Source of the DNA: Burkholderiaceae bacterium
Lineage (GTDB): Bacteria > Pseudomonadota > Gammaproteobacteria > Burkholderiales > Burkholderiaceae_C
Length of the DNA stretch: 35,288 bases
Reading direction: 5' to 3'
NCBI GenBank assembly: GCA_019746735.1
Contig: JAIERT010000144.1
Span: 1-35,288 of the forward strand
Shown: positions 3,806 to 23,726 of the stretch, in pieces
Layout of the letters: each line of letters begins with the position of its first letter
Position numbering within the stretch: the stretch's first letter is position 1
Made by a program: the position numbers and the translations under genes
Notes under the pieces: generated by a model
What the model was told of the DNA's origin: nothing
Database searches by the model: none
What the model saw: the letters and a program-made list of their open reading frames with translations, nothing else

Positions 3806-4015
3806 ATGAAAGTGCCGCAATACCGATATCGCTGCCCTCTGGGCAACCTGCAGCCCACCGCGCCCGACCTGGACGCCGTCAAACGCGAAGGCTGGCGCAC
3901 CGATCACATCTTGGTCGTCTCCGAGCACGATGAACGACTCGACTGGGTGGAGAAGCAGTTCGTGCGCAGGCTGGGCGAACGCCTATATGGGGATGGAGGC
4001 AAGCGCCATGGCTGA
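3806..4015 (+). CDS. Small hypothetical phage protein
   Basis: MKVPQYRYRCPLGNLQPTAPDLDAVKREGW...; tightly packed with neighbours. Confidence 0.5.
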   Translation: MKVPQYRYRCPLGNLQPTAPDLDAVKREGWRTDHILVVSEHDERLDWVEKQFVRRLGERLYGDGGKRHG

Positions 4016-4400
4016 GACACGAACCGAATGGACTGTTGACGATGTGGCTGCCCGATTTGCTGAAGCTGCCGAAACCGCACACAAGTTGCCCCGAGCCCGC
4101 CCGGGCGGCTACTTCAACCCCTGGATGACGCTGGCCATGCAAGTACCGGAACGCTATCCTGATCCCGAGCGGTTGTACCGGCCCTTGCCACCAAGCCCCA
4201 AAGCGGTTGAGCGGATGCTCGAGACCATGCGCTGGGTGCAGTGGCTTGAGGTGGAGCAGCGACACCTCGTCTGGATGCGCTCGAACCGGTATCGCTGGGA
4301 GCAGATCGGTCGGCGGTTTGCCTGCGCGGCAAGAACTGCGCAGCGGCGGTACGACGCTGCCATCCATCTGGTCGCTCTACACCTGAACAAGGGACACTGA
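4008..4400 (+). CDS. DUF6362-like HTH protein
   Basis: YRWEQIGRRFACAARTAQRRYDAAIHLVALHL helix-turn-helix-like C-terminus; overlaps upstream stop. Confidence 0.6.
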   Translation: MAETRTEWTVDDVAARFAEAAETAHKLPRARPGGYFNPWMTLAMQVPERYPDPERLYRPLPPSPKAVERMLETMRWVQWLEVEQRHLVWMRSNRYRWEQIGRRFACAARTAQRRYDAAIHLVALHLNKGH

Positions 4401-8519: not shown

Positions 8520-8798
8520 TCAATGCTCGGTGCGTTTGAGATCGCGGTAGAAATTCTCGTGCGGCCCAACCATCAGCAACTTGAGGGTGTTCTCATCCAG
8601 AACGCGGTAGGCAAGCAGGCACAGCAGGTTGCCCATGCGGAACTTGTAAACCTGCACGCCAGCCAGATCGCCGACTTTGGTTTCACCGGCTTCCGGCTGG
8701 CCGACAATGGTTCGAACTGCCTCGTCAAGCGCGGCTTTTTGCTGCTTGTGCAGCTTTTTAACGGCGCGCTCGAAGGTCGGTGTGACAAGGACGCGCAT
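8520..8798 (-). CDS. RelE/ParE-family type II toxin
   Basis: MRVLVTPTFERAVKKLHKQQKAALDEAVRTIVGQPEAGETKVGDLAGVQVYKFRMGNLLCLLAYRV; downstream of antitoxin with 1-nt TGATG-type overlap. Confidence 0.75.
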   Translation of the reverse strand: MRVLVTPTFERAVKKLHKQQKAALDEAVRTIVGQPEAGETKVGDLAGVQVYKFRMGNLLCLLAYRVLDENTLKLLMVGPHENFYRDLKRTEH

Positions 8799-9007
8799 CA
8801 GCCGAACTGGTACTCACCCACGGGTTCTTCCTGGTCAGCGATCAGGATGTCGCGGATGACGCTGAACGGAAGATCGGGGTTTTCTGCGGCGATCTTGCCG
8901 ATCTGAGACCAGTATTCGATTTGCTTGGGCACCGAGCGGTGCTCGATGGTGCCATAGCGCTTGGCGGTCTCAACCAAGGCTTCGGGCAGTTTGACATTGA
9001 TGGCCAT
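8798..9007 (-). CDS. ParD-like antitoxin
   Basis: MAINVKLPEALVETAKRYGTIEHRSVPKQIEYWSQIGKIAAENPDLPFSVI: ParD_like pattern; AAGGAGG SD; directly upstream of the toxin. Confidence 0.75.
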   Translation of the reverse strand: MAINVKLPEALVETAKRYGTIEHRSVPKQIEYWSQIGKIAAENPDLPFSVIRDILIADQEEPVGEYQFG

Positions 9008-9437
9008 ACGAACCTCCTTTGAATGGGTCTATGATAGCCCATAAGGGACCAAAATGGAACCTGTGATGTCGGTCTGCCAGGGCCTCTTCGACGATCTCGC
9101 AGTGAATCACAAAGCCCGTCAGGTAGGGCAGCCCCTTCGGAATCCCGTGCTGCTTGCTGGTCAGGCGGCCGATGGTCCAGCCCATCCAGCGTTGGGTGGC
9201 GGCGTGGATCGCATCCTGCAGGTTCAATCCGGCGTGCAGGCCGTTGAGTACATCGTCGGCAAAGTGACGGCCATGGCGGCTGTCCAGGAAGGCGCGCACC
9301 GAGTCGAGGGGCTGGCAGGTGGCATCCGAAATCGTGGTCATCGCGATGGGCCAGGCGGCTTGGGCGTCGTTGTTCATCGTGCCCCAAAAGCCCCAGGCTT
9401 CGTTCTGGGTGGTTGGGATTTGCTTGGTGGTGGTCAT
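8970..9437 (-). CDS. Conserved hypothetical protein; 3' end overlaps the antitoxin gene
   Basis: ATG preceded by AAGGAGAAAACG; MTTTKQIPTTQNEAWGFWGTMNNDAQAAWPIAM... Confidence 0.6.
   Translation of the reverse strand: MTTTKQIPTTQNEAWGFWGTMNNDAQAAWPIAMTTISDATCQPLDSVRAFLDSRHGRHFADDVLNGLHAGLNLQDAIHAATQRWMGWTIGRLTSKQHGIPKGLPYLTGFVIHCEIVEEALADRHHRFHFGPLWAIIDPFKGGSYGHQCQTARSLG
9025..9040 (-). promoter_or_regulatory. Candidate TA autoregulatory operator
   Basis: Minus strand GGGCTATCATAGACCC: CTAT-C-ATAG palindrome flanked by GGG/CCC; TATCAT could be a -10; 18 nt upstream of antitoxin ATG. Confidence 0.4.
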
Positions 9438-9471: not shown

Positions 9472-9510
9472 GTATGAACGCGCTGTTCGATTGAGAAGCC
9501 AAGCGCTTTC
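9472..9510 (-). repeat. Intergenic promoter-like repeat, copy D
   Basis: Minus strand GAAAGCGCTTGGCTTCTCAATCGAACAGCGCGTTCATAC. Confidence 0.85.
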
Positions 9511-9520
9511 TGAATCTTTT

Positions 9521-9853
9521 TCAGGCTTCTACCGCAATTCCGACGTAACGCCCGTAGGCGCTACCCGAGGGGTCGACGTACAGGGTCTTGCGATTCTCGG
9601 CCTTGACTTCGACGACGTGCCGAGTGGCGTGGTCGGGGTACCCGCCCTTGCCGGCCAGCCAGTCGCGATCTTGCAGTAGCGAGCCGGAAAAAGCATCGTA
9701 CTCGGCAGTGGTCAGTTCGCGGGTTTCGCTGATCACTACCGGCTCCGGGCGTTCGTCGTAGGGCGTGGCCGCCAGCACCTCCTGCAAGTCGACCGGCTTG
9801 CGGGTGAATCGGACTCGGAGAGGGTTGGCGGGGTTCCTGATTTCGGTGGTCAC
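9521..9853 (-). CDS. Conserved hypothetical protein
   Basis: GTG start at 9853 preceded by GGAGCAACCGCC; MTTEIRNPANPLRVRFTRKPVDLQEVLAATPYDERPEPVVISETRELTTAEYDAFSG... Confidence 0.6.
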   Translation of the reverse strand: MTTEIRNPANPLRVRFTRKPVDLQEVLAATPYDERPEPVVISETRELTTAEYDAFSGSLLQDRDWLAGKGGYPDHATRHVVEVKAENRKTLYVDPSGSAYGRYVGIAVEA

Positions 9854-9885
9854 GGCGGTTGCTCCTGGTTGCGTTGATGACAGTC

Positions 9886-9924
9886 GTATGAACGCGCTGT
9901 TCAATCGGAAAGCCAAGCTATTTC
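9886..9924 (-). repeat. Intergenic promoter-like repeat, copy C
   Basis: Minus strand GAAATAGCTTGGCTTTCCGATTGAACAGCGCGTTCATAC. Confidence 0.85.
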
Positions 9925-9972
9925 ATGGATCACGTTGGGGTGGCGTGGATATGCCGCCACCCCATCTCGAAT

Positions 9973-10521
9973 TCAACCGACCCGGTAGATACGCTCGCCT
10001 CCCTCGGGCTTCTCCGAGGTGATGGTGAGCCCTAGTTTCTTCTTGAACGCCCCGGCGAAGGTGCCGCGCACCGTGTGCGCCAGCCAGCCGGTGGCCGCGC
10101 AGATCTGGTTGATGGTGGCTCCCTCCGGGCGCTGCAGCATCTGGATCACGGCGGCCTGCTTGCTGTTTTCGCGGGTGCGGGGCTTCCCCTCGACGCCGAC
10201 CTTGAGCAGTCGCTTGGCCGCGTCCTGCTTTTCTTGTGCCCAGTTGGCCTCGGCGGCCGCGACGGCGGCCTCGACCTCGGGGTCGGGGTGGATGGTGGCC
10301 GGCGTCGGCCGGGCGCGCCCCAAGGCGTCGTAGCCCTCGGCGGCGACGAACCAGTCGGTGCTGTCGCGGGTAATCAGTGCCCTGTTGAACAAGCCCTCCA
10401 GCACCTTGGTGCGGGCACCGCCCTTGATGTTGTCGGGGAACCATTCGATCTTGCCGCCGGTGTGTTCGATGGCGTAGGCGAGGATGGCGTGCTGGGCCGG
10501 GGTCAGTTGGATGGTGGTCAT
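9973..10521 (-). CDS. DUF3489 family protein (HTH-like C-terminal domain)
   Basis: MTTIQLTPAQHAILAYAIEHTGGKIEWFPDNIKGGARTKVLEGLFNRALI...RENSKQAAVIQMLQRPEGATINQICAATGWLAHTVRGTFAGAFKKKLGLTITSEK; SD AAGGAGCATCAA. Confidence 0.8.
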   Translation of the reverse strand: MTTIQLTPAQHAILAYAIEHTGGKIEWFPDNIKGGARTKVLEGLFNRALITRDSTDWFVAAEGYDALGRARPTPATIHPDPEVEAAVAAAEANWAQEKQDAAKRLLKVGVEGKPRTRENSKQAAVIQMLQRPEGATINQICAATGWLAHTVRGTFAGAFKKKLGLTITSEKPEGGERIYRVG

Positions 10522-10553
10522 TTGATGCTCCTTCGTGGTGGTTGATGGTGTGG

Positions 10554-10592
10554 TCATGAACGCGCTGTTCGAGAGTGAAGCCAAGCGCTTTC
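10554..10592 (-). repeat. Intergenic promoter-like repeat, copy B
   Basis: Minus strand GAAAGCGCTTGGCTTCACTCTCGAACAGCGCGTTCATGA. Confidence 0.85.
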
Positions 10593-10602
10593 CGCTTCTT
10601 TT

Positions 10603-10809
10603 TCAGTCCTGCTTCGCGGCCTGCCGTCCTGCCTCGTAGGCCGCCATCAGGGCGCTCTTGACGCCCCAGACGCTGACCTCGTGGAAGTCCATCCGGTCGC
10701 TGTTGCGGGTTTCCAGTGTTTCGATGAACAGGTGGTCCAGGGCAATCGATTCGAGCAAGAGCTCGATCTCGTCAGGGGAGAGTGCGGTGGGTTGCTTGGG
10801 TTTGGCCAT
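10603..10809 (-). CDS. Small DUF6900-like protein
   Basis: MAKPKQPTALSPDEIELLLESIALDHLFIETLETRNSDRMDFHEVSVWGVKSALMAAYEAGRQA; SD AAGGAGCCCCAC. Confidence 0.65.
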   Translation of the reverse strand: MAKPKQPTALSPDEIELLLESIALDHLFIETLETRNSDRMDFHEVSVWGVKSALMAAYEAGRQAAKQD

Positions 10810-10848
10810 GTGGGGCTCCTTGGTGGGTTGCTTGTCAATCGACATCTG

Positions 10849-10886
10849 CATTCACGCGCTGTGCGCCCCAGAAGCCAAGCGCTTTT
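10849..10886 (-). repeat. Intergenic promoter-like repeat, copy A (diverged)
   Basis: Minus strand AAAAGCGCTTGGCTTCTGGGGCGCACAGCGCGTGAATGC. Confidence 0.75.
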
Positions 10887-21071: not shown

Positions 21072-21107
21072 ACCCACGATTCACCCGATATCGGATTTCT
21101 TCTTCCC

Positions 21108-23726
21108 ATGGCCGAACGCAACCTCTCCATCCGCCTGTCCGTGGTCGACGGCGGCAAGGTCAAAGCCGAACTGTCCGAGATCGGTGAGAAGGGGGAGCGC
21201 TCGCTCAAAAAAATCGAGGCGGCGGCCACGCCAGCGTCTGGGGGCCTGAAACTGCTGTCGTCTGCCGCCAACGACGCCAAGTTCCAATTGCAGGCCGCCA
21301 CCGATCGGCTCGGCGTGCTTGGATCGGTCCTGGGCAAACTCGGCCCCGCCGGTCTGATGGCCGGCGCCAGTATCGCCGCCTTGGGTGTGGGCATCACTGC
21401 CCTGGTCATGCCCGTGGCCCGTGTGGGCGATGAGTTCTTCAAGCTCTCGCAAAAGACCGGCGTCTCGGTTGAAGCGCTCACCGCGCTCGACTATGCCGCC
21501 AAGCTCTCGGACGTCAGCACTGAAGGACTGACCAAGGGGCTGCAGCGCCTGTCTGTCGCGTTGTTTGACAGCCGCTTCGAGGGTGCCGAAGGCAGCAAGG
21601 CCTTGCTAGCGCTGGGTGTAGCGGCTACCGACGCCCATGGGCAGATCCGGCCAACCGAGCAGGTCTTGCTCGATCTGGCCGAGAAGTTCGCCGATATGCC
21701 CGACGGCGCGGACAAGGCGGCCTTGGCCATCAAGCTCTTTGGCCGCGAAGGGCTCAACCTGATCCCCTTCCTCAACCAGGGGCGAGAGGGCATTACCGCG
21801 CTGATGGAAGAAGCGCAGCGCCTGGGCCTGGTGATGTCCGAAGACGTGGCACGCGCCTCGGAAGTCTTCAACGACAACCTGACTCGCTTATCGGCCATCT
21901 TTGAAGGCGTGCAGCGCCAGATCGGCGCGGCCGTCATTCCGGTGCTGGCCGACTTCACCGAGCAAGTGATCCTGGCGCAGACAGAGACGGGCAGCTTCAG
22001 CAATGAGCTGCAGCGCATCACGTCCAACCGGGAGGCCACGCTGGCCTTTCTGGAATCCGTCGCCTCGGGCCTGGCCTTCATCGCCGAGTCGTCGGTGCTC
22101 TTGAAGCGCGTGATTGCCCAACCGTTTGACAGCCTGTCGGTGGTCGGCAAGGACATCGAGACCTGGTTCAAGACCGAACTGCTGACCTTCTACAAGAACT
22201 ATGGGTTCGATGCACAGGCCATCGATGCCGAAATCGCCAAACTGCAAACGGCACGTGACGACTATGTGCGTGCCGCCAATGACCGGCTATTCAACATCAA
22301 CCAGAACCCGGGCTATACCGATCGCGTGGCCCGCTTCTTTGACGAGCAGCGCCGCACGGTGCGCGTCATGGGCCAGCGGTTCGTGCTCGACACCGAAGCG
22401 CAGGCCCGGGAAGTTCAGGCCATCTACGACCGCTTCCTGCCGACCGTGCCCCGTACGCCCGCCAATCTGGATCTGAGCGCCTTTGCCAGGCCGACTGCTT
22501 CCGCCAAGCCCGATGAGGGCGAAGCCTTCCTCAACCAGCTGCGCACCCGGCTCCTGCGCACCCAGGAGGGCGAAGCGGCCGAGTTGCGTGCGCGTGCCTT
22601 GCAGATCGAGGCCAAGGGCTACCAGGGGGTGGCGGCGCAAGCCGAGCAGTACATCCAGGTGCTCGAAGCCATTGAGCGGCAGAAAGCCGCCAACCAGGCC
22701 TTCGATGCTTACGAAAAAGAAGAAGCGGCCGCCCGCAAGATCACCGAAGGGCTGATCGGCGGCAACCGTCAGCGCATCGAGGCCTTGCAGCTGCAGCGCG
22801 AAATGCTGGATCTGTCGGCGAGCGAACGTGCCGTCCTGCAAGCCCGCACCGAATTAGAAAAGTCTGCGACTGCCGCGCGCAAGGAGGCCAGTCAGATCCA
22901 GGACGCCGATCTGCGTGCCCAGACCATCGAGGCCATCAACGACGCCCTGGCGCGTCAGCTACCCATTGTGGAGAACCTCATTCGGGCCAACGCCGAGTAC
23001 CAGCGTAGCACCGAGTTCGGGGCCAAGGCGGCCTTGCGCACCTATATTGAGGACGCCATCAACGCCGCCAAGCAGGCCGAACGCGCCGTGACGGGCGCCT
23101 TCAAATCCATGGAGGACGCGCTCACCCAGTTTGTGATGACCGGCAAGCTGGACTTCAACAGCTTGGCCAACTCCATCATCAGTGACCTCATCCGCATCCA
23201 GATCCAGCGCGCCATCACCTTGCCGTTGGCGAACTTTGCGATGAGCCTGTTTGCGCCGGCGGCCAGTGCCGCGTTGCCTCTGGGCTCCGGTGACCTGATG
23301 GGCGTGAACGCCAATATCGCGCACAGCGGGGGTCTCTTGGGTGCCGATGGCCTGCCATCGCGTCAGGTGAGTGCCACCCTGTTTTCCGGTGCGCGTCGTT
23401 TCCACACCGGCGGTTTGGTCTCGGGCGAAGTGCCGATCATCGCCCGACAGGGGGAGGCGGTGTTCACGCCGGGGCAATTGAGGGCACTGGGTGGGGCCGT
23501 CGCCACCAAACCCCAGGTGAATGTGGAAGTGAATGTGATCAACCGCGCCAGCGGGGTGGAAACCCACGTCGAGCAGCAACAGCAGCCCGATGGAAGCACG
23601 CGGCTCGATGTGATCGTCGAACAGATGGAAGCGCGCATGGCCCGGTCGATCTCCCAAGGTTCCGGCTTGGCGCCGACGCTGGAGCGTCGCTACGGACTCA
23701 ATCCTGCAGCCGGAGCCATGCGATGA
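21108..23726 (+). CDS. Tail tape measure protein
   Basis: 872 aa; ASIAALGVGITALVMPVARVGDEFFKLSQKTGVSVEALTALDYAAKLSDVSTEGLTKGLQRLS; long coiled-coil; C-terminal FHTGGLVSGEVPIIARQGEAVFTPGQLRALGG. Confidence 0.95.
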   Translation: MAERNLSIRLSVVDGGKVKAELSEIGEKGERSLKKIEAAATPASGGLKLLSSAANDAKFQLQAATDRLGVLGSVLGKLGPAGLMAGASIAALGVGITALVMPVARVGDEFFKLSQKTGVSVEALTALDYAAKLSDVSTEGLTKGLQRLSVALFDSRFEGAEGSKALLALGVAATDAHGQIRPTEQVLLDLAEKFADMPDGADKAALAIKLFGREGLNLIPFLNQGREGITALMEEAQRLGLVMSEDVARASEVFNDNLTRLSAIFEGVQRQIGAAVIPVLADFTEQVILAQTETGSFSNELQRITSNREATLAFLESVASGLAFIAESSVLLKRVIAQPFDSLSVVGKDIETWFKTELLTFYKNYGFDAQAIDAEIAKLQTARDDYVRAANDRLFNINQNPGYTDRVARFFDEQRRTVRVMGQRFVLDTEAQAREVQAIYDRFLPTVPRTPANLDLSAFARPTASAKPDEGEAFLNQLRTRLLRTQEGEAAELRARALQIEAKGYQGVAAQAEQYIQVLEAIERQKAANQAFDAYEKEEAAARKITEGLIGGNRQRIEALQLQREMLDLSASERAVLQARTELEKSATAARKEASQIQDADLRAQTIEAINDALARQLPIVENLIRANAEYQRSTEFGAKAALRTYIEDAINAAKQAERAVTGAFKSMEDALTQFVMTGKLDFNSLANSIISDLIRIQIQRAITLPLANFAMSLFAPAASAALPLGSGDLMGVNANIAHSGGLLGADGLPSRQVSATLFSGARRFHTGGLVSGEVPIIARQGEAVFTPGQLRALGGAVATKPQVNVEVNVINRASGVETHVEQQQQPDGSTRLDVIVEQMEARMARSISQGSGLAPTLERRYGLNPAAGAMR

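Follow-up and report, generated by a model that had tools for sequence, protein, structure and literature searches.

In phage lambda, the CII-activated promoters pI, pRE and paQ carry TTGC repeats that straddle the -35 region, together with sigma-70 -10 boxes. Among other recurrent phage signals, the ESAS are reportedly treated as promoters in a paper on phage ZoeJ. The SAS of Cluster K mycobacteriophages is a 13-bp GGGATAGGAGCCC-like sequence in the position of the ribosome-binding site, and the paper on SAS and ESAS left the function of SAS open (PMC3203893). The repeated element described here is probably, judging by its sequence and placement, a promoter of a distinct class, common to a large family of temperate phages and the mobile elements derived from them, mostly in Beta- and Gammaproteobacteria.

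The window, a 35,288-nt stretch of DNA from a Burkholderiaceae bacterium, holds most of a temperate phage, whose plus strand encodes a D5-type primase, a RuvC-like resolvase, a DUF6362 protein, two ParB-methylases, the terminase gpA and a holin. The minus strand carries an island of four small genes, placed between the methylases and the small subunit of the terminase, that encodes DUF6900, DUF3489 and two families with no annotated function (Table 1). PADLOC returned no defence annotation for the island genes. The core of the element, GCTTGGCTT-N10-CAGCGCGTTCAT, has four minus-strand matches in the window and none in shuffled sequence. Copy A, the first of the island, is diverged and points away from the terminase small subunit gene.

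Table 1. Element copies and the genes that follow them in the window
Feature	Position	Strand	Sequence	Match or family	Predicted transcription start
Element copy D, core	9474..9504	-	GCTTGGCTTCTCAATCGAACAGCGCGTTCAT	no mismatch	~9467
Copy D, -35-like box	9502-9497	-	TTGGCT		
Copy D, -10-like box	9479-9474	-	GTTCAT		
Gene after copy D (start codon 9437)	8970..9437	-		phrog_8020 family, function unknown; residues 4-120 match	
Element copy C, core	9888..9918	-	GCTTGGCTTTCCGATTGAACAGCGCGTTCAT	no mismatch	~9881
Gene after copy C (start codon 9853)	9521..9853	-		unknown; weak phrog_21303 match	
Element copy B, core	10556..10586	-	GCTTGGCTTCACTCTCGAACAGCGCGTTCAT	no mismatch	~10549
Gene after copy B (start codon 10521)	9973..10521	-		DUF3489 (PF11994); predicted tandem winged-helix domains	
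Element copy A, core	10850..10880	-		3 mismatches; second hexamer GTGAAT	~10843
Gene after copy A (start codon 10809)	10603..10809	-		DUF6900 (PF21841)	

The preliminary description had placed the four copies correctly, as a pattern scan gives four matches against none expected, and its distances from repeat to start codon agree with those measured (36, 34, 34 and 40 nt for copies D, C, B and A). It was also right that every copy has 17 nt between TTGGCT and GTTCAT (GTGAAT in copy A), and that the similarity of copies B and D reaches back to the TGAAAAAG of the previous gene, over 51 nt at 88%. The two palindromes ascribed to each copy are inexact, because copy C reads TAGCTT in place of AGCGCT and copy A has a changed GAAC/GTTC dyad. 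Nor does the element head every gene of the island, since a ParD-like/ParE-like toxin-antitoxin pair at the island end (8520-9007, minus strand) has no copy. This pair overlaps the phrog_8020 gene, whose product is 155 aa long against a median of about 122 aa among its relatives, as if the pair had inserted at the end of the gene. On the 3' side of the DUF3489 gene there is a GC-rich hairpin, GGGGTGGCG-N9-CGCCACCCC (9937-9963, minus strand), without a T-run; related arrays have a similar one.

The element is widespread. Exact-match scans found at least 106 stretches in IMG/VR and at least 120 in GTDB genomes, the latter mostly from Beta- and Gammaproteobacteria among the matches listed, which also include the complete genome of Nitrospira defluvii; matches in metagenome-assembled genomes labelled as other phyla may reflect misbinning. 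In all, 820 unique sites were collected, and hundreds of prophages carry the element. Scanned with a weight matrix, 1.7 Mb of loci chosen by the motif contain 595 sites, and the reversed sequence contains none. In a class-level survey, mismatch-free copies occur in 9 of 291 genomes, and all copies examined in the surveyed genomes lie in phage or recombinase regions or remnants of these. Among named collections queried with one 119-nt array, the phage records yielded only AcaML1 and the plasmid records only Ralstonia megaplasmids. The genome of the window has a second locus (L233, on contig C406), in which the element precedes a small gene followed by DUF3489, and also precedes DUF2924 and a serine recombinase; the locus adjoins a type III restriction-modification system. 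The element sequence was found in no paper of the open-access literature, and the titles and passages of open-access papers retrieved for DUF3489 and DUF2924 describe no promoter.

The element consists of two boxes held at a rigid distance. In a family-balanced logo (one selected copy per locus removed, families weighted equally, 34 groups), conservation is retained by CTTGGCTT and CAGCGCGTTCAT but not by the flanks. All 547 two-box sites have 10 nt between the boxes, with a single +4 exception elsewhere (L618), and the second box is almost never found alone (473/480). Among the 820 sites, the second hexamer is GTTCAT in 593, GTTACT in 89, GTCAAT in 49 and GTGAAT in 26. Position 34 is a pyrimidine in 98% and position 35 a purine in 89%, which corresponds to Y-1 R+1, 7 nt past GTTCAT; this step at the predicted start is supportive and not decisive, because a similar one occurs at position 29. 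In a handful of alphaproteobacterial loci, homologous genes (DUF2924 and a gene resembling the f11 family) combine TTGATAAG or TGGATAAG with an equally spaced ACAGAGCG, and the hexamer following CAGAGCG is variable there (GTTCAT, GAACGT or GGTCAT). Upstream of the f11-like genes in L307, L309 and L310, this variant has its own dyad, GCTTATC-N5-GATAAGC, before ACAGAGCGAACGT. Reading the antisense strand (ATGAACGCGCTG...) as a short peptide was set aside, with stops within 16 codons in 236 of the 820 sites and variation at all codon positions.

The first loci had been picked by the motif; for the test of position, loci were therefore fetched again by protein similarity, with the motif ignored in choosing them. 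In these, the element lies upstream of 80/80 DUF2924, 69/79 DUF3489 and 74/77 phrog_8020 genes and of 22/25 genes of the family that follows copy C in the window. It is on the coding strand, mostly 29-48 nt ahead of the match start, and only one opposite-strand match occurs in about 757 kb. All ten DUF3489 genes without the element are second in their unit, 26-38 nt behind a small gene that carries it, and the element thus marks transcription units, not start codons. At motif-chosen sites, 479 of 531 units begin 29-42 nt past the element, against 69 of 599 random positions. The proteins downstream of these sites form 45 clusters, of which 27 are groups of at least two or singles with real start sites; over 20 seem to be true families with no relation to each other, and the remaining clusters include spurious ORFs. 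Gene duplication, which the preliminary description had named as a way to explain the conservation, therefore cannot account for the element. The expected occurrence before homologous genes elsewhere is borne out in the motif-blind loci, and the idea of a co-regulated, promoter-like element before each unit finds support, with modules of element plus gene being gained and lost in a conserved order.

The putative regulon also extends, beyond what had been described, to the operon of DUF2924 and a serine recombinase. In DUF2924 loci from phage records, the element lies 29-35 nt ahead in about 18 of 20, and DUF2924 is present in 22 of the 28 element-bearing phage or plasmid records, the others of which may be fragments. 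The Acidithiobacillus caldus phage AcaML1 (complete, JX507079, 59 kb) resembles the phage in the window in its methylases, its minus-strand island of small genes with the element, and its terminase gpA. Three of its four copies are in the island and the fourth stands before DUF2924 and the serine recombinase; there are none elsewhere, and all four lie on the strand opposite the lytic genes. The same sequence, in the same orientation, with the same rigid spacing and a fixed distance to the gene, stands once per unit before unrelated genes in both modules. The deposited AcaML1 record differs in that it leaves the element unannotated and misses both a DUF6900 gene and the probable Gp30 start. The DUF6900 gene follows an element copy at about 21970-22274 of this locus (L368), and the annotated Gp30 start appears to be too far upstream, spanning the element (21075-21153).

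In the promoter reading, CTTGGCTT would serve as the -35 region and CAGCGC-GTTCAT as an extended, atypical -10 region. Transcription would begin at the purine 7 nt past GTTCAT, giving a T-poor leader, about 28 nt long, with a strong Shine-Dalgarno sequence at its end. Each transcription unit of the island would be served by one copy, and so would the DUF2924-serine recombinase operon; as a copy precedes both kinds of unit, a single activity could induce them together, switching on integration and accessory genes jointly in the manner of the CII-dependent lambda promoters. Initiation at the element, its start site and the coordinate control are inferred; what the sequence has is the general promoter geometry of two boxes at fixed spacing, a Y-1 R+1 step about 7 nt on and one element per unit. 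A sigma-70 promoter has a TTGACA-like -35, a spacer of 16-18 bp and a TATAAT-like -10 with A-11 and T-7. TTGGCT as -35, the 17-nt spacer and the T at -7 fit sigma-70, but position -11 is a T. A scan with the sigma-70 consensus left the island without a match, and no such promoter was enriched upstream of the sites. Sigma-54, which requires GG and GC dinucleotides at -24/-12 in the short fixed spacing of TGGCAC-N5-TTGCA, does not fit either, as the GG of TTGGCTT is followed at the required distance by variable sequence and not by GC. It counts against a promoter that the -10-like hexamers (GTTCAT, GTTACT, GTCAAT and GTGAAT) lack the A-11 of sigma-70, and that their conservation exceeds what is normal for promoters.

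It is unlikely that the element acts instead in the 5' leader of read-through transcripts, as an RNA element for translation, processing or regulation by a protein or small RNA, which is how the mycobacteriophage start-associated sequences were first proposed to work. Its invariable placement 5' of genes, with little variation in distance, and an A/C-rich leader with little structure, would suit such a role; terminators are often absent between the units of arrays, which makes read-through transcription and an element at the RNA level conceivable. However, second genes of a unit would need the element just as much and yet lack it, and solitary copies have no other conserved or sigma-70-like promoter upstream. 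Folding of the sites is unremarkable (z -0.44) and points to no conserved RNA structure, and Rfam gave no covariance-model match for the island or four related loci. The GAAC/GTTC arms are fully paired in only 411 of the 820 sites, with very few compensatory changes. With the dyad broken in half of the sites and almost never compensated, a functional role for the GAAC/GTTC palindrome noted in the preliminary description finds no support, and a conserved hairpin GAAC-AGCGC-GTTC was likewise dropped.

An operator, bound by a repressor of phage or host origin or by a nucleoid protein, that overlaps or blocks promoters and is itself no promoter, seems improbable. Conservation as high, rigid and asymmetric as this is usual where a protein recognises DNA, an inverted upstream arm, GAAGCCAAGC, lies 7 or 3 nt ahead of the first box in 172 of 548 copies (21 when shuffled), and alphaproteobacterial copies have their different dyad. 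Yet the sites have no other conserved promoter, the positions match a -35, -10 and +1 geometry, and the GAAGCCAAGC arm occurs mainly within arrays and is missing in solitary copies.

A promoter read by DUF3489 itself is a sub-case of the promoter reading, whose confidence overlaps with it, and is doubtful at best. DUF3489 is present in most arrays and its own gene is preceded by the element. The model shows two winged-helix domains (pLDDT 77) with weak PadR/MarR similarity and no Foldseek match below 0.001, and on this basis the protein may bind DNA. Against DUF3489 as a required regulator, a role for which the preliminary description had made it a candidate, one complete genome (G141) has an exact element before DUF2924 and lacks DUF3489; a further genome (G637) has an element with one mismatch and no DUF3489 reported. 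A recombination site that exchanges units of element plus gene, as integron attC does, is very improbable, for although 62 gene orders occur in 130 arrays and a sequence common to the units favours homologous exchange, relative order is kept (DUF6900 ahead of DUF3489 68:4, C ahead of D 31:0) where that of attC cassettes is free, the sites lie 5' of genes at a fixed distance with Shine-Dalgarno and start preserved and not at the cassette 3' end, and solitary copies stand before DUF2924 in many elements.

If the element is a promoter, candidates for its reader are DUF2924 with its RAMA-like DNA-binding domain, a ParB-like HTH protein, or a host factor. DUF2924 tracks the element best in a small sample, and two genomes with single, apparently remnant copies (G007 and G278) lack it. 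It matches the RAMA domain weakly, a domain listed as DNA-binding (PMC11342252). The ParB-like HTH family is found near the recombinase in 14 loci, two of them alphaproteobacterial (weak Pfam matches), and spans alpha-, beta- and gammaproteobacterial elements; it lies near the serine recombinase and DUF2924 in L368 (313-786, minus), L246 (1033-1509, minus) and L236 (12615-13112, plus). The DUF6362 protein of the window (3942-4400, plus strand) has an HTH-like end and is a possible phage regulator, though its AlphaFold model is of too low quality to use (pLDDT 47.6). Apart from G497, the surveyed genomes in which a DUF3489 island is clear all encode DUF6362. As reader of the element it was rejected, being absent from G141, G213 and G637, where the element sits only at DUF2924.

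One signature unites more than 20 families of small uncharacterised phage genes with the integration operon as a putative regulon across bacterial classes, and a single complete genome of Nitrospira has it too. Should the element be a promoter, its odd -10 box implies a novel reader, the finding of which would show when these genes are expressed, and the sequence offers a handle for gathering accessory, possibly anti-defence, genes of prophages. A more tentative proposal is that the element represents a promoter class undescribed so far, read by an element-encoded alternative specificity factor or obligate activator (e.g., DUF2924 or the ParB-like HTH protein). It might co-activate integration and a variable accessory island throughout a phage lineage of very wide distribution, and the -35 box would have co-evolved with its reader between the alpha- and the beta/gammaproteobacteria.

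Compared with known systems, the element resembles the lambda CII promoters in that one cis signal would serve the integrase and other lysogeny-side genes on the strand opposite lytic transcription, but its consensus contains no TTGC-N6-TTGC repeat and its target genes are many more. It shares with SAS and ESAS the character of phage-specific repeats, mostly in one orientation, ahead of numerous genes whose families are unrelated; some of the repeats have an additional inverted repeat, the sequence of which differs between subclusters (PMC3203893). Its sequence differs, however, and it is a 31-nt two-box element placed 29-42 nt ahead of the start and apart from the Shine-Dalgarno sequence, only at the first gene of a unit and in several bacterial classes. 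Like phage morons as defined in PMC5567305, the island genes are accessory genes with their own, here putative, promoter, and here they also run opposite to the neighbouring phage genes. Classical morons have individual sigma-70 promoters and terminators, whereas here a single non-sigma-70 sequence precedes many families and a terminator is often not seen.
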